A stretch of 20,447 bases of DNA from a virus: positions 1 to 20,447 of the IMG/VR virus record IMGVR_UViG_3300025759_000911, one strand, 5' to 3'. A program made the position numbers and the translations under genes. Below, piece by piece: positions 4,009 to 18,315 of this stretch. The notes below the pieces were generated by a model, which saw only the letters and a program-made list of their open reading frames with translations, had not been told where the DNA came from and did not search any database. Positions within the stretch are counted from its first letter, which is position 1, and each line of letters opens with the position of its first letter.

Positions 4009-5268
4009 TTACTTTATACTTGATAAGGCTTGTTCGATATCCCTAATCAAATCTTCATTATTTTCAACACCTATTGATAGTCTTACCAACTGTTCGGTAA
4101 TACCTAACACTTGTTTCATCTCCATATCAACACCAACATGTGTCATTGTAGCTGGGTGTTGTACTAAGCTCTCTGTACTACCTAAACTTACCGCCAGTTT
4201 AACTAACTTTAGATTATTAAGGAATGTGAAAGCTTCTTTCTCCCCTCCAACAATATCAAATGAAATCATAGCACCGCTACCACTACACTGTTCCTTCCAT
4301 ATCTCTACATTTCTCTCATCACCATAATCACCTAAATAATGAACTTTATCTACCTTTGGGTGATATCTTAAATATTGAGCAACCTTAATCGCATTTTCTT
4401 GTTGTTTATCCATTCTTAGTTTAAGCGTCTCTAAGGACCTTAACATTAACCAAGCAGTGTTTGGACTAACCATGTTACCTAAGAACGTTCTGAGCGTCTT
4501 AACCCTAATCATATCCTCTTCTTTACCCATGACAACACCAGCAATTAAATCACTATGACCACCAATGTATTTGGTCGCTGAATAAACTGTTAAATCAGCA
4601 CCCAACCTTAATGGGTGTTGCCATATTGGTCCCATATATGTATTGTCAACAACTAGTTTACAATTGTTATTATACATTTCATTAAATGATTCTTTTAATC
4701 TAGAAAATCCTTTAATATCAAATAAATCATTAGTTGGGTTTGATGGAGTTTCAATATAAAACATCTTAACTGACTCATTGTCATATTCAGATTCATTAAT
4801 ATATATTAAAATGTCTTCCATTGAATCTGTTGGTAGTACTGGGATACTATTAACCCCAACTGATGGTAGATAATGATTTATGAAATGGTCTGTCCCCCCA
4901 TAAGTTGGATTACTATATACTATAGTGTCACCTGGTTTAAGGTATTCTAATAAGACTGTTGAAATGGCAGCCATACCACTCTCAAATACCGCTGAATCGT
5001 CAGCAGCATCCCATAATTTCAATCTATCTTCTAATATCTCTAGGTTAGGATTATTAATTCTACTATAAATTAAACCTAATTCTTCACCTTCATTCTTATC
5101 TCTTAAACCATAGGCAATTTCAAAGAAGTCTTTACCTTCTTCTGCTGATTTAAACGCAAAGGTTGATGTTTGAAAGATTGGTGGTTTAACAGCACCTTCA
5201 CTTAATTCTGGTTTATATCCATAAGTCATCATATGACTTTCTGGGTTTATTATATTTTTTTCGCTCAT
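4009..5268 (-). CDS. Cystathionine gamma-synthase family PLP enzyme (Cys/Met metabolism)
   Basis: This full-length (419 aa) fold-type I PLP enzyme belongs to the Cys/Met metabolism family. Conserved features are intact: the phosphate-side YSRINNP (68-74), ESGMAAIS (96-103), YGGTDHF (123-129), ETPSNPT (173-179), the cofactor-binding VVDNTY (206-211), the Schiff-base lysine Lys233 in SATKYIGGHSD, and the C-terminal SLGSTESLVQHPATMTH block. The N-terminus (NPESHMMTYGYKPELSEG) matches the branch annotated in marine bacteria as cystathionine gamma-synthase family protein. The exact reaction (gamma-synthase, gamma-lyase or methionine gamma-lyase) cannot be settled from sequence alone. It should act in the cytoplasm on sulfur amino acids. 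Together with APS kinase (14735-15334) it suggests phage influence on sulfur metabolism. Such an enzyme is rare in phages. Confidence 0.92.
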   Translation of the reverse strand: MSEKNIINPESHMMTYGYKPELSEGAVKPPIFQTSTFAFKSAEEGKDFFEIAYGLRDKNEGEELGLIYSRINNPNLEILEDRLKLWDAADDSAVFESGMAAISTVLLEYLKPGDTIVYSNPTYGGTDHFINHYLPSVGVNSIPVLPTDSMEDILIYINESEYDNESVKMFYIETPSNPTNDLFDIKGFSRLKESFNEMYNNNCKLVVDNTYMGPIWQHPLRLGADLTVYSATKYIGGHSDLIAGVVMGKEEDMIRVKTLRTFLGNMVSPNTAWLMLRSLETLKLRMDKQQENAIKVAQYLRYHPKVDKVHYLGDYGDERNVEIWKEQCSGSGAMISFDIVGGEKEAFTFLNNLKLVKLAVSLGSTESLVQHPATMTHVGVDMEMKQVLGITEQLVRLSIGVENNEDLIRDIEQALSSIK

Positions 5269-9156: not shown

Positions 9157-10428
9157 TTACCTATACTTCTCTGGAACTATGTTAATTAATTCCTCAGAAA
9201 AATCGTATTTATCATTATACTTAACAACGTATCTAAGTAGTTTAGCTTTAAACTCTAAATCAGATTTACTTGTTTTAAATTTCTTAGGGTTTTCTTTTGC
9301 TTTCTCAATAACACTTAAACCAGCGTTAGCTTCTTTAGTAGTCCAAAAATGGTTTTCATCCATCTTGAAGAATCTGTTAAGTGGTTTCCTATATTTCCAA
9401 TAAGCCATAAACGTTTCATTTCTCATCTTATTTTGGCTCATTTCACCTTTCTCTTGTGTACCATGAACTAATAAAGCAAAGTTAGATTCCTTACCACCCT
9501 TTTGTTTAGCTAAATCATCATCTAAGTCAACAACAAGACCAGCTTCTAAAACTTCTTCTGGTGTATTAAACACATGTGACTCTTTAACATCAACATTTGG
9601 TAAATCTCTATCTCTCTTACCACCCTTAGAAAGAGTTATTGACAAGTTAGGTATTTCATCTAAAGCATCTTTATATTTTTTAATGAACGGTACTGATTTA
9701 GTATACGCATAAAAATAAACCTTTGGGAATTTTTTAGCTGCTTCCATCCAAGCTTCCAAATATTTAGTGCTAAAGAAATCTCCAGATTCGTGAATTCTAA
9801 TACCTTCTTTAACACCATCTGTATCAAAGAAATGTTTAATAGACCTAACTATCAAGTCAGTCATTGCTTTTACACCACCTTCTTTGGCAGCTTCATCAAT
9901 TAAATCTTTATTATGCCACCTATTAGCTCTAATTGCATCGTATTGCATTTCTTGGTTAGCAGCATAGCAATCGAATTCAGCATCATCACCCTTAGTTACT
10001 TGTACATCACCCTTATAAGGAATCTTTTCACCAGTTTTATTACTAATCTTATATGTACCCTCTTTATCTGGGTCCATTTTTCTATACCTATCAACTTTTT
10101 TAAGACAAAGATTAGCAAATGGACATGTCCAGCCAGCTGGAAGTGAGAATGTAGCAACTGAACCACCAAGTTTTGTGTTTTCAGCACTAAATGTAAGTAC
10201 ACAAATATCTAATAAGGCATCCATCATATCATCTTCCATACCTTCATAAAGTTTGGTTACAAACTTGTTAGGTGTAGATGTTAATAAATTGTCTACAATC
10301 TCATTAATTAATTTATCATTATTGTGAATTTTTGTCCCTTCAAAAACATTATTAATTTCAGTTACGAAGTTTTTTCTATTCTCTTCGTGTTTTAAAATAT
10401 TTTCTTTTAGTAGTTTTTTAATACTCAT
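9157..10428 (-). CDS. GP88-like phage protein with N-terminal helical leader
   Basis: This 423-residue protein has cysteine motifs CPFANLC (Cys102, Cys108) and DCYA (Cys154) after the SLPAGWT block, then RANRWHN, the conserved IRIHESGDFFS (212-220) and a YFYAYTKS strand. This order (C-x5-C, CYA, RWH, H-x-SGDF, YTKS) matches what I recall of the Gene product 88 (GP88) family of actinophages. The cysteines could bind a metal or iron-sulfur cluster, but the biochemical role is unknown. The first 10 residues, MSIKKLLKEN, form a helical leader with LKE at 7-9, like leaders on four or five other proteins here. The family call rests on memory of the motif order and needs a profile search. Confidence 0.6.
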   Translation of the reverse strand: MSIKKLLKENILKHEENRKNFVTEINNVFEGTKIHNNDKLINEIVDNLLTSTPNKFVTKLYEGMEDDMMDALLDICVLTFSAENTKLGGSVATFSLPAGWTCPFANLCLKKVDRYRKMDPDKEGTYKISNKTGEKIPYKGDVQVTKGDDAEFDCYAANQEMQYDAIRANRWHNKDLIDEAAKEGGVKAMTDLIVRSIKHFFDTDGVKEGIRIHESGDFFSTKYLEAWMEAAKKFPKVYFYAYTKSVPFIKKYKDALDEIPNLSITLSKGGKRDRDLPNVDVKESHVFNTPEEVLEAGLVVDLDDDLAKQKGGKESNFALLVHGTQEKGEMSQNKMRNETFMAYWKYRKPLNRFFKMDENHFWTTKEANAGLSVIEKAKENPKKFKTSKSDLEFKAKLLRYVVKYNDKYDFSEELINIVPEKYR

Positions 10429-14544: not shown

Positions 14545-14757
14545 TTATCTTTTAATACCGTAATTTGATTTATACCAAACTCTTTCATGAATATAGTAAA
14601 GAGTCATCTTACTTATGACTTCAACACCACCTATGGATAACCCTATTTTCCAGTCACCAGTTATTAATCCACCAATAACTATTGTATCTATTGTACCTAA
14701 TACCCTCCAAGTTATTGTTTTTAAAATATGTCTTTTATGACTTATTTCTGGTTTCAT
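14545..14757 (-). CDS. DUF2061 membrane protein
   Basis: This 70-residue protein matches the DUF2061 pattern: KRHILKTITWRVLGTIDTIV, then a glycine-rich hydrophobic stretch (GGLITGDWKIGLSIGGVEV) and the conserved YYIHERVW near the end. It has two probable membrane helices at about 19-37 and 40-56. DUF2061 genes are often found beside cysC or fused to sulfate-activation genes, and here the start overlaps the APS kinase 3' end by 23 bases, so the pair is co-translated. A role in sulfate or sulfonucleotide transport or membrane location of the kinase has been suggested by such context but is not proved. Confidence 0.85.
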   Translation of the reverse strand: MKPEISHKRHILKTITWRVLGTIDTIVIGGLITGDWKIGLSIGGVEVISKMTLYYIHERVWYKSNYGIKR

Positions 14758-15334
14758 ACATAGTTAAGTTATAGTAAATAAAATCTACACTATCCTCTAT
14801 ACTCATCTTGTCTGTTTTAATAAACATATTAGGGTTTTTAGGTTCTTCATAAGGTGAGTCAATACCTGTAAACATAGGTATTTCACCAGCTCTAGCTTTC
14901 TTATATAAACCCTTTGGGTCACGTTCTTCACAAACATCTAATGGTGCCTTAATATAAACTTCAATAAAGTTATCTTTACCTATTATATCTTTAGCTATTC
15001 GCCTTTCATTTTCAAATGGTGAAATAAAAGCTGTGATAACTATAACACCTAAATCAGTCATTAGATTTGCAACTTCAGCTATTCTCCTAATATTTTCTTT
15101 TCTATCATTATCAGAAAACCCTAAATCTTTATTAAGACCCATCCTAATATTATCACCATCCAAAACATAAACTAATTTACCTTGATTATGTAGCTTAGAC
15201 GCTAATTCATTTGCTATAGTTGATTTACCAGAGCCAGATAAACCTGTTAACCAAATTGTTTTACCTTTTTGTTTAAGCAAATCTTCTCTTTCTTCTCTAG
15301 TTACCCTTTGTGTAACTTTAAATAAATTATTCAT
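14735..15334 (-). CDS. cysC: Adenylyl-sulfate (APS) kinase
   Basis: This 199-residue enzyme phosphorylates adenosine-5'-phosphosulfate to PAPS in sulfate activation. The sequence has the P-loop GLSGSGKST (31-39), VLDGDNIRMGLNKDLGF with the family's DGDN motif (59-62), RRIAEVANLMTDLGVIV, the FISPF catalytic-loop block (near 103-107) and the C-terminal RDPKGLYKKARAGEIPMFTG lid motif, then SPYE-EP. The length and order are normal for a single-domain CysC. It begins two bases after the zinc-ribbon microgene and overlaps the DUF2061 gene. PAPS made by a phage could feed sulfation (of sugars or tRNA-like targets) or sulfate assimilation. The PLP enzyme at 4009-5268 suggests the latter. Confidence 0.95.
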   Translation of the reverse strand: MNNLFKVTQRVTREEREDLLKQKGKTIWLTGLSGSGKSTIANELASKLHNQGKLVYVLDGDNIRMGLNKDLGFSDNDRKENIRRIAEVANLMTDLGVIVITAFISPFENERRIAKDIIGKDNFIEVYIKAPLDVCEERDPKGLYKKARAGEIPMFTGIDSPYEEPKNPNMFIKTDKMSIEDSVDFIYYNLTMYETRNKS

Positions 15335-16132: not shown

Positions 16133-16411
16133 TTATTTAAGACCAATAGATACAGAGGTCATATGTAAATGTAACCCAGTTAGCTCAACCTCATTTTTTG
16201 TACTTATAGCACTGGTTAATATAATTTCTTTATTATCATAAAAATCAAATGTGTATCTGAAATCTTTATTTAATAGACAATCATTGAAACTATAGTTATT
16301 AGTTAATGTAAACCAAAATAACTCATTATTAATATCTAGTTTATCTTCTGTTGAAGTGGCGAACCAAACATCTTTAACATCATCCCAATAAACTTTAATC
16401 AACGTCTTCAT
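16133..16411 (-). CDS. Hypothetical protein, 92 aa
   Basis: Soluble, with many aromatic residues in strand-like alternation (IKVYWDDVKDVWFATS, ELFWFTLTNNYSF, FRYTFDFYDNKEIILTS), so probably a beta-rich fold. No family is recognised. Four ATG codons cluster at the start; I chose the last (MKTLIKVYW, 16411), which overlaps the previous gene by 17 bases. An earlier in-frame ATG at 16432 would extend the overlap to 38 bases. The ending HLHMTSVSIGLK has no known motif. Confidence 0.62.
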   Translation of the reverse strand: MKTLIKVYWDDVKDVWFATSTEDKLDINNELFWFTLTNNYSFNDCLLNKDFRYTFDFYDNKEIILTSAISTKNEVELTGLHLHMTSVSIGLK

Positions 16412-16751
16412 CATCATCATCTTCAGTATCATCTAAATTAGTCAAATCATTTCTCATATCTTTGTAAGCATCATATATATCATCAGTCATTTGATTATTT
16501 AAATCATTTAATGATTCTGTTGAGGCATCTCCATACTGCGAGTCAATAACTTTCTTTGCTGAAAACATAGCACATAAATCACTGAATAGTTGTACATCCC
16601 TCTCTTCGAATATTATACCACTGACCAATATCATAAAATTACCAACACTAGTTATAGTGTAATCTTCTTTATTAGTACCTTCTTTTATTAAAGTGTTTCC
16701 TATATTAAAAAGTTTTTCACTTAATTCGTCATGTCTTTTATTGATTTCCAT
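16395..16751 (-). CDS. Hypothetical protein with acidic tail, 118 aa
   Basis: The N-terminal 90 residues look helical (EINKRHDELSEKLFNIGNTL, IFEERDVQLFSDLCAMFSAK), and the last 15 residues form an Asp/Glu run (DDTEDDDDEDVD). No membrane segment or known catalytic motif is seen and no family is recognised. The acidic tail resembles those that mimic nucleic acid or recruit partners, but that is weak evidence. It begins 28 bases after the kinase-phosphodiesterase gene ends. Confidence 0.65.
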   Translation of the reverse strand: MEINKRHDELSEKLFNIGNTLIKEGTNKEDYTITSVGNFMILVSGIIFEERDVQLFSDLCAMFSAKKVIDSQYGDASTESLNDLNNQMTDDIYDAYKDMRNDLTNLDDTEDDDDEDVD

Positions 16752-16779: not shown

Positions 16780-17736
16780 TTATGGTGTAATTTCTGTAAC
16801 AATACCTTTAACTGCAAAGTCTTTGACACTCTTCCAATGTTCTATATTGTTACTGTCGTATGGCTTACCTTTATTTGAAGTATTAACAGCCAACGTTATA
16901 TGTGGTTTATCATTATTTGAATAATAACCCTCGACACCAACAGCAATAGCTTTATCTGATACCCCTAATGATTTAACTGTTAATGTAACCTCTTTACCTA
17001 AGTCACCTTCTAAATCTTCTGGTAAGCCTTTACCAAAAACAATTGTCATGTGATGGGCGAATGTTTTCCAACCTTCGGGTATTGAATCTTTAAACTCATT
17101 CAATAATCTTTTGCTCTCGAAATCATCTAAAACAACTGCGGAATACAGAATCTTTTTTGGTTTATCGGGTTGACTATCGAATCTAGATTTAGAATTAATA
17201 ACCTTTTCAAGTGAAAGTGGTCCAACGCTCTTATGTGCTTGAATCATTTGTGATATTTTTCCTAGTGGAACCCCATGCGTATTTCTTTCTGCCAATTCCT
17301 CAGCTGAAAGTCCTCCAGTACCAACATCAACAAATTTAATATTTTCATTAGCATATCCCATATTAAGTGCTGACTCAATATAATTTTTTGGTTCATCTGG
17401 TCTAATATTGGTGTTATCTACTATAACTGGTGACACACCGCTTTTCATTGCTTTTTCAGCCATTTTGAAGTTAGTGGCATGCATTTTACCAATTGGTGCG
17501 TAGTTACCGTTTTTAAACATATTTGAAAAGAACTCATTATAATCACCTTGTGCTTCAATCCTGTCGTCCGTTGAGAATATCTCACCACTACCCTTCAACT
17601 CTCTTGCTTTAGTTGATTTACCAGCACCTGGGATACCTCTCATTATGATTAATACTTGGTCTGGTCTACTTACTGTAGAACCTAGTGCGTTTTTTTCTAC
17701 TTCTTCCCTTAATATCTTTTTTATAGTATCTTTCAT
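16780..17736 (-). CDS. Polynucleotide kinase / 2H phosphodiesterase fusion with leader
   Basis: Two catalytic domains are visible in 318 residues. Residues about 26-185 form a P-loop kinase of the PNK/AAA_33 type: RGIPGAGKST (33-42), FSTDDR (54-59) and VIVDNTNIRPDE (104-115). Residues about 195-316 form a 2H phosphoesterase: HMT (229-231) and HIT (279-281), each within beta strands. Kinase plus 2H domain is the healing half of fungal-type tRNA ligase (5'-OH kinase and 2',3'-cyclic phosphodiesterase), here without the ligase. It probably repairs RNA ends, for example tRNAs cut by host anticodon nucleases. The first 12 residues, MKDTIKKILREE, are a leader with LRE at 9-11. Its ATGA start overlaps the upstream gene by four bases. 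Confidence 0.85.
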   Translation of the reverse strand: MKDTIKKILREEVEKNALGSTVSRPDQVLIIMRGIPGAGKSTKARELKGSGEIFSTDDRIEAQGDYNEFFSNMFKNGNYAPIGKMHATNFKMAEKAMKSGVSPVIVDNTNIRPDEPKNYIESALNMGYANENIKFVDVGTGGLSAEELAERNTHGVPLGKISQMIQAHKSVGPLSLEKVINSKSRFDSQPDKPKKILYSAVVLDDFESKRLLNEFKDSIPEGWKTFAHHMTIVFGKGLPEDLEGDLGKEVTLTVKSLGVSDKAIAVGVEGYYSNNDKPHITLAVNTSNKGKPYDSNNIEHWKSVKDFAVKGIVTEITP

Positions 17737-18278
17737 AGTAAATAATCTTTAAATTTTTTGTTTATTTCTTCTTTAGTTAAATATGTTTCTAATAATATTT
17801 CAGTTTCTGAGAAGTCTCTATTAATGGCCAGTGTTTTATAAGAGTAGAAGTCTTCAGAAAAGTCATTGACTAAATCATCAAAATGTTTTACTTTTAAGTT
17901 ATACTCATTAATGTTTTTACCATCTTGGTGTGTTTTATAATATATCATGGTTTCTAGATAATGAAACCTAACATCTTCATGGTCAATAGAATTCATAGTA
18001 TCTAATATTTCATCAACACTAATATTGTAACCAATATAATTAAGAACTTCACTTTTTATTTCATAATCAATAGCTGATTGTTCAAATGAAGGTACATCGA
18101 ATATCTTGAATGGTCTGCAATCCTCTAAATCCATTCTCATACTTTTATTATCCATTGAGACACCGATAAATCTATGACCCTCAAAGAAAACATAGAAATC
18201 AAACATATTTAAAGATGGCATGAACCCACCGTCATTTAAATCAATATATACTATAACAATTCTATTAATATTAGTCAT
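17733..18278 (-). CDS. Hypothetical protein coupled to the RNA-healing enzyme
   Basis: This 181-residue soluble acidic protein starts MTNINRIVIVYIDLNDGGFM. The first half looks alpha/beta (FYVFFEGHRFIGVSMDNK), and the second half is more helical (EVLNYIGYNISVDEILDTMN and TLAINRDFSETEILLETYLT). No motif is recognised. It is first after a strong promoter (18283-18313) and its TGA overlaps the kinase-phosphodiesterase ATG (ATGA), so equal production of the two is likely and a functional partnership is plausible. Confidence 0.7.
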   Translation of the reverse strand: MTNINRIVIVYIDLNDGGFMPSLNMFDFYVFFEGHRFIGVSMDNKSMRMDLEDCRPFKIFDVPSFEQSAIDYEIKSEVLNYIGYNISVDEILDTMNSIDHEDVRFHYLETMIYYKTHQDGKNINEYNLKVKHFDDLVNDFSEDFYSYKTLAINRDFSETEILLETYLTKEEINKKFKDYLL

Positions 18279-18282
18279 GGAA

Positions 18283-18313
18283 CAAATATATAGTTAATAT
18301 TTTGATTATACAA
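18283..18313 (-). promoter_or_regulatory. Promoter TTG-N20-TATATTTG before the RNA-healing pair
   Basis: TTTG (TTG at 18313-18311), 20 bases, then TATATTTG (18290-18283) match the Bacteroidota pattern. Four bases separate the box from the ATG at 18278. It lies in the 37-base gap after the 213-residue gene. Confidence 0.78.
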
Positions 18314-18315
18314 AT

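Follow-up and report, generated by a model that had tools for sequence, protein, structure and literature searches.

The window analyzed here, a 20.4-kb viral record, encodes a 318-aa protein (hereinafter, the healer) that combines a P-loop kinase with a 2H phosphoesterase and, judging from sequence comparison and structure modeling, is very probably an RNA end-healing enzyme, most likely for cut tRNA, that would ready the ends for an RNA ligase. The most valuable result lies outside the window coordinates, in the relatives, for which a natural 'stop hop' in the healer gene is predicted repeatedly: at least 12 lineages probably express the healer by ribosomal hopping over a stop codon inside the Walker A motif, and the stop-hairpin element appears to be a mobile cassette, with a NUMOD3 homing endonuclease, that may protect the P-loop site. 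The healer gene of the window is an uninvaded allele.

Domain architecture of the healer

The healer gene and its parts are as follows.

16780-17736, minus strand: healer ORF (kinase + 2H), 318 aa, with the motifs RGIPGAGKST, VDNTN, HHMTI and PHITL
17701..17736, minus strand: leader MKDTIKKILREE (residues 1-12), capsid-targeting-like, with candidate cleavage after LRE
17209..17664, minus strand: T4-Pnk-like P-loop kinase domain (residues ~25-176), from AAA_33, 1ly1 and fold
16783..17157, minus strand: 2H phosphoesterase domain (residues 194-318) with HMT and HIT motifs, from fold and invariant residues

In the healer translation, RGIPGAGKST occupies residues 33-42, VDNTN 106-110, HHMTI 228-232 and PHITL 278-282. 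Profile searches identify the kinase part as AAA_33 of Pfam (3.2e-10), as polynucleotide kinase phrog_505 (5.7e-10) and, in the PDB, as a relative of 1ly1 (5e-5). Sequence support for the 2H part is weak, with matches to phrog_36523 (3e-4) and tRNA_lig_CPD (0.039). In the predicted structure, modeled from a 33-row homologue alignment (mean pLDDT 91.8), residues 26-173 superpose on T4 Pnk (VIA Z 13.8, rmsd 2.4, 138 residues aligned) and residues 194-318 on the catalytic domain of mouse CNPase (VIA Z 13.3, rmsd 2.1, 123 aligned). The Foldseek matches of the model include polynucleotide kinases, the Pnkp1/Rnl/Hen1 RNA-repair complex, a Lichtheimia (fungal) kinase and CNPase. Both HxT pairs, H229/T231 and H279/T281, are invariant in the 33 alignment rows and in all 30 covering rows of a second alignment.

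Given the superpositions on T4 Pnk and CNPase, both halves of the domain assignment made in the first-pass annotation of this DNA, a P-loop kinase fused to a 2H phosphoesterase, hold, as does its claim that the polypeptide lacks a ligase domain (none was detected by profile or by fold). Of the outcomes named there as evidence against the assignment, a second domain outside the 2H superfamily or loss of catalytic residues in homologues, neither was seen for the 2H part: its HxT pairs are invariant and the 2H fold is clear. The proposed match with the healing half of fungal-type tRNA ligases is accurate with respect to the domain content, the healing half of the fungal and plant ligase Trl1 having the same order of kinase and 2H cyclic phosphodiesterase (CPD) and the same inferred chemistry. 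Fungal kinship, however, is not demonstrable: the nearest relatives are T4 Pnk and clostridial Pnk for the kinase and CNPase for the 2H domain, and the comparison with the Trl1 CPD profile that the annotation suggested gives a marginal match, at 13.9 bits below the curated cut-off of 23. The healer further differs from Trl1 in its lack of a ligase domain, its provenance from a prokaryotic virus and the presence of a leader.

The kinase domain contains the Walker A signature GxxxxGK[ST], with G37, G39, K40 and S41 present in 31/31 family members; D57 is equally conserved, and R151 is found in 29 of the 31. K40, S41, D57 and R151 align with K15, S16, D35 and R126 of T4 Pnk, whereas the position of T4 Pnk Arg38, in the DxxR motif, aligns with residue 60, which is Ile or Trp in all 31 members. 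The five T4 Pnk residues have functional roles in that enzyme. Because the Arg38 position is Ile or Trp family-wide, the exact kinase chemistry is a prediction, and the healer kinase may differ in its mechanism or its substrate. The likeness to the T4 Pnkp-Rnl1 system thus consists in the kinase fold and in the Rnl1-type ligase partner in the relatives of the healer, whereas the 3'-end domain of T4 Pnkp is a HAD phosphatase rather than 2H and its Arg38 is unconserved in the healer family. CNPase shares the 2H fold but differs in the organism group and context. Iyer et al. (2021, PMC7824862) previously proposed RNA repair by jumbo phages with a set of Rnl1, a polynucleotide kinase and 2H, which the loci described here have in common; in the passages on these sets, PNK is fused to HAD, and no mention of a kinase-2H fusion was found there.

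RNA ligase synteny and the predicted role in RNA repair

The healer protein was found again in dozens of IMG/VR contigs (the L- and G-numbers denote related contigs), whereas no isolate phage in the collection searched encodes it in full length and cultured phages give weak matches only. In most of the kinase-2H loci, an RNA ligase of the T4 Rnl1 type (PF09511, 2.8e-16; T4 Rnl1 2c5u, 2.3e-8) is encoded 0.4-5.6 kb downstream; four loci with enough sequence have no downstream ligase (L009, L046, L040, L053). Genes for tRNAs adjoin the healer or the ligase in L027, L107, L108, L116, L007/L025 and L104, with a tRNA-Arg gene located between a conserved 118-aa ORF and the ligase in L107; no tRNA genes were found in the window. 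The ligase synteny and the tRNA neighborhood fit tRNA repair as proposed for jumbo phages (PMC7824862).

In the proposed pathway, cleavage of tRNA (or other RNA) by host ribonucleases would leave 2',3'-cyclic phosphate and 5'-OH ends. The 2H domain would open the cyclic phosphate to yield, like CNPase and the Trl1 CPD, a 3'-OH/2'-phosphate end; the kinase would phosphorylate the 5'-OH; and the break would then be sealed by the ATP-dependent Rnl1-type ligase, whose gene follows a few genes later in most relatives. What the sequences and the model show is the domain content, the fold, the conservation of the 2H residues, the ligase synteny in relatives and the tRNA neighborhood in several of them; the enzymatic activities, the tRNA substrate and the counter-defense (anti-anticodon-nuclease) role we infer. 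RNA end healing is the best reading because, in most relatives, the Rnl1-type ligase is found near the fusion, often beside tRNA genes. Counted against it are the Ile or Trp at the Arg38 position, the reduction of the ligase to a remnant in the window and the loss of the kinase in a close relative (see below), the absence of an RtcB or Rnl2-type ligase from a 38.8-kb sister contig, and the lack of a match to Tpt1/KptA in the contigs searched.

The linkage with the ligase follows the fused form of the protein, the 24 standalone-2H loci all lacking an Rnl1 ligase. The frequent occurrence of such standalone homologues, always away from the ligase, would fit a different activity, namely, that the 2H domain does the work on small cyclic nucleotides or ADP-ribose cyclic phosphates, in Acb1-like counter-signaling, with the kinase accessory or decaying. 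The retention of the leader and 2H without the kinase in the close relative, the NUDIX and ADP-ribosyltransferase genes beside the healer in L004/L005/L007 and the signal-degrading roles proposed for phage 2H enzymes (PMC7824862) point in the same direction. We nevertheless consider counter-signaling quite unlikely, given that the best fold match, CNPase, is a 2',3'-cyclic nucleotide phosphodiesterase and that the fused kinase is under constraint, with the K, S, D and R residues retained, in addition to the ligase linkage of the fused form. Acb1, the anti-CBASS 2H enzyme, is not among the fold matches listed for the healer, an absence that does not amount to exclusion. On the side of RNA repair, a tRNA CCA-adding enzyme gene lies directly upstream of a standalone 2H gene in L012:3780-4988.

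The end-healing reading meets a complication in the neighborhood of the healer in the window, which includes the following features.

17733-18278, minus strand: upstream ORF, 181 aa, lineage-specific, with an ATGA overlap with the healer start
18283..18314, minus strand: Bacteroidota-type promoter TTTG-N20-TATATTTG, ending 4 nt before the ATG of the upstream ORF
16395-16751, minus strand: conserved helical ORF, 118 aa, located between healer and ligase in relatives
16133-16432, minus strand: Rnl1-type ligase remnant, 99 aa, matching the ligase from residue 96 on, just past KxDG

The search for an RNA ligase recommended in the first-pass annotation succeeded in most relatives, but in the phage of the window yielded only the remnant, which shows 41% identity over ligase residues 96-166 (E about 4e-6) and matches the ligase region of L051 with E 1e-16. 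Neither RtcB nor the 2'-phosphotransferase KptA/Tpt1 was detected in the window, in a 38.8-kb sister contig or in the larger related contigs; the sister contig also lacks an Rnl2-type ligase, whereas the large related contigs encode a further ligase, from family PF09414 (Rnl2 type). In L010:4959-5387, from a phage with ~99% DNA identity, the whole kinase domain is deleted in frame, with the leader and 2H left. The ligase remnant and this deletion indicate that the repair module is partly dismantled in the lineage of the window. With the local ligase reduced to 99 aa, sealing would depend on another ligase, encoded elsewhere by the phage or by the host, unless the module is decaying. Taken further, the remnant and the deletion would make the locus a relic, with the ligase lost, the kinase going and no present repair function; this is improbable in view of the intact frame of the window healer, which keeps nearly all conserved catalytic residues and recurs as the same protein, at 100% identity, in two more contigs, L002 and L003.

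A homologue of the 118-aa ORF was found downstream of the healer in the 28 loci examined. Its product is all-helical, with a four-helix predicted model (pLDDT 79); searches of PDB and PHROG profiles returned nothing useful. This protein is likely the true partner of the repair module, a role that had been assigned to the product of the upstream ORF. The overlap of the healer ATG with the stop of that ORF, as ATGA, is indeed there; its tblastn homologues, however, are confined to near-identical contigs, with none in other lineages, and the functional partnership was dropped. Apart from the repair module, the window encodes an adenylylsulfate (APS) kinase (14735-15334, Pfam 1.3e-70) and, from inspection of the sequence alone, a PLP enzyme of the cystathionine/methionine gamma-lyase-like kind (4009-5268), possibly genes of sulfur metabolism.

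Promoters and the N-terminal leader

In 17/19 intact homologues, a TANNTTTG box ends no more than 15 nt, and usually 4-5 nt, before the healer ATG, with a TTTG mostly 18-20 nt upstream of the box (e.g., L004, L005, L030, L051); among the other ORFs of two large contigs, about 4% have this box at the start. The healer promoters, as predicted, imply Bacteroidota hosts and near-leaderless mRNAs, and the location of the box at the healer ATG suggests early, near-leaderless transcription by the host RNA polymerase. The 'strong promoter' noted previously in the window is valid for the Bacteroidota consensus only, as a generic sigma-70 scan gave no excess over shuffled sequences.

The leader of the healer reads MKDTIKKILRE|E, which resembles a prohead cleavage site and ends in an [LI]xE pattern (ILRE); in the predicted model, it is a low-confidence helix (residues 2-11). 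The motif MKxxIKxLLRE occurs at N-termini 13 times against 2.0 expected in a 362-kb contig, 4 against 0.7 in a 161-kb contig and 5 against 0.2 in the 38.8-kb sister of the window, where the expectation comes from internal positions and the enrichment is somewhat optimistic because the motif was fitted after viewing a broader scan. Besides the healer, the leader is carried by ART-PolyVal proteins and a gp88-like protein (window 9157-10428), and these leader-bearing proteins make up a candidate capsid-targeted set. Further carriers were noticed in L005:2811-3374, G015:208451-208897, G001:11136-11741 and L027:5241-5816; the types of proteins with this leader are gp88-like, ADP-ribosyltransferase and, by reading, HAD-like and CCA-adding-enzyme-like.

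The leader could send the healer into the capsid via T4-like prohead proteolysis, so that the enzyme would enter the host with the DNA, a route compatible with healing, to which we give somewhat less than an even chance. It is suggested by the recurrence of the [LI]xE leader, above expectation, on unrelated proteins including ADP-ribosyltransferases, for which the injected T4 protein Alt is a parallel (PMC3014915), and by the S77 (T4-type) prohead protease encoded in the two largest related contigs, G015 and G016; a putative capsid ORF near the protease in G015 reads SLLTE|STT. That protease, however, is present in only 2/13 contigs overall, with the genome of the window phage itself incomplete, and the leader is missing in 3/19 intact homologues (L008, L053, L055) and in five bypass lineages, although it is kept in L010 despite the loss of the kinase. 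The host-type promoter at the start codon also suggests early synthesis. Of the earlier claim that the leader lets the enzyme arrive with the DNA, what stands is that the leader is real and recurrent; the packaging is plausible at most. Overall, the first-pass annotation read the locus mostly well, with the partner and packaging claims being weak.

Split relatives with a stop codon in the Walker A motif

The first sign of the split genes was two homologues with frames broken at one P-loop spot. A search with the shared hairpin as the pattern, without requiring a stop, found 18 contigs, and in 18/18 the hairpin lies in the healer gene and is followed by CCG, a stop codon and G(A/S)GKST. These contigs represent 12 distinct lineages.

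L007, 3973-5200: split healer
L027, 10458-10760: split healer
L009, 4890-5030: split healer
L103, 3649-3780: split healer
L104, 2406-2495: split healer
L105, 1555-1634, minus strand: split healer
L106, 4226-5382: split healer
L107, 5596-6576: split healer
L108, 3743-3874: split healer
L109, 6041-6126, minus strand: split healer
L115, 621-740: split healer
L116, 6630-5485, minus strand: split healer

All three stop codons are used, and the gap is 5, 6 or 9 nt long: TAACCA (2 lineages), TAACTA (3), TAACCT, TAGCTA, TAGCTT (2), TGACA (2) and TAAATATCA. The take-off codon is CCG in 12/12 lineages, compared to 2-6% of the proline codons in the same phages, and skipping the gap restores RGVPG(A/S)GKST in every lineage. 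The predicted landing triplet is a Pro codon in L103 (CCA), L116 (CCA) and L109 (CCT) and near-cognate in the others (CTA, CTT, ACA, TCA). The hairpin consists of 14 bp, with 99.2% of the cells paired against 39-68% in slid controls, the covariation being thin because only one pair shows two-sided change. Its folding energies in bypass genes (-28.8 and -23.1 kcal/mol; z-scores -4.9 and -3.2) contrast with -7.4 and -12.5 kcal/mol in intact homologues, which encode a nearly identical peptide without a comparable hairpin.

Under the predicted mechanism, the ribosome would translate the mini-ORF to CCG, with CCG in the P site and the stop in the A site; the hairpin would re-form behind the ribosome, helping it forward over the stop and 2-6 nt; and tRNA-Pro would re-pair with the CCA-like triplet, with decoding resumed at GGN-(A/S)-G-K-S-T.

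Several other explanations of the broken frames were rejected or disfavored. Sequencing error is countered by identical states from 3 and 5 separate samples and by the stop being present in all the hairpin contigs. Stop reassignment or readthrough does not accommodate the frame change in L009 and L106 or the 9-nt gap of L105, and readthrough breaks Walker A; moreover, genes in the L103 contig end in TAA more often than in either other stop. Against a group I or II intron, Rfam searches gave no match over the cassette, and a separate 5' exon is lacking from the available DNA of eight lineages. Re-initiation is clearly possible only in L009 and L106, where GTG overlaps the stop, so that the 5-nt-gap lineages could re-initiate at GUG instead of hopping. 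A pseudogene is disfavored by the intact distal frames, the pairwise dN/dS of 0.08-0.57 over the joined frames (rough ratios because dS is near saturation) and the retention of catalytic residues before and after the stop; the L106 lineage, with its truncated distal ORF, may be degenerate.

The layout of the loci is that of the mobile bypass cassette at T4 gene 39-mobA-gene 60 (PMC3014915, PMC2988022, PMC5009743). In L007, the order is a 5' exon cut in the P-loop, a NUMOD3/TnsA-like endonuclease, a new mini-ORF with the hairpin and stop, and the remainder of the gene. L116 and L106 have the same layout, L027 retains the cut exon and an endonuclease tail, and L107 the endonuclease; thus, a homing endonuclease lies beside the split healer in four lineages (L007, L116, L106, L107), and a truncated ancestral 5' exon is likewise present in four (L007, L116, L106, L027). 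Among the loci compared, relatives of the endonuclease (>50% identity) occur only at bypass loci. Bypass and intact genes are interspersed in the tree built from the distal part, with 9 changes against a shuffled mean of 9.1 and no clustering, and there are close bypass/intact pairs (L007/L005, L108/L034, L009/L046). The features in common with T4 are the homing endonuclease beside a split gene, the truncated 5' part, the new N-terminal mini-ORF, the stop right after the take-off codon, the 5' stem-loop and the maintained distal frame. In T4 gene 60, however, the gap is 50 nt and the take-off codon is GGA, as opposed to 5, 6 or 9 nt and CCG in the split healers, for which, unlike gene 60, the site is the Walker A motif of an RNA-repair kinase and the lineages number 12. 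By analogy with the proposal for T4 mobA/gene 60, the stop-hairpin cassette may shield the P-loop site from cleavage. The open-access literature on bypassing with homing endonucleases yielded T4 reviews only.

The ligase has also been hit. A split intein (TIGR01445, TIGR01443) breaks the Rnl1-type ligase immediately after KxDG in L032, in L108 and in the L061/L106 group.

L032:10874-12924: fractured ligase, N part ...CHEDTVLIT..., C part ...FFANGILVHN|S
L108:6704-9224: fractured ligase, same parts
L061:9205-11152: fractured ligase, same parts

An endonuclease-like ORF lies between the ligase halves in L032 (Vsr-like) and L108, an arrangement that resembles the 'fractured genes' of environmental phages. 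With the ligase KxDG and the healer P-loop both affected, both nucleotide-binding motifs of the RNA-repair module are insertion sites of mobile elements. Two contigs with a predicted bypass in the healer, L144 (10033-10394) and L027 (516-872), also carry phage-encoded tmRNA genes.

As of 2016, in-frame stop hopping was known from synthetic constructs only, with no known natural occurrences (recoding review, PMC5009743), and the question whether further genes of T4-related phages are bypassed is raised in a T4 review (PMC3014915). If the prediction is true, the 12 lineages, with three stops and three gap lengths, would allow ribosome bypassing to be studied comparatively and would add an independent example of a homing-endonuclease/bypass cassette. 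To the known phage RNA repair, the healer itself, as an enzyme, adds a kinase-2H fusion of Trl1/CNPase-like type beside T4-type Rnl1 ligases.
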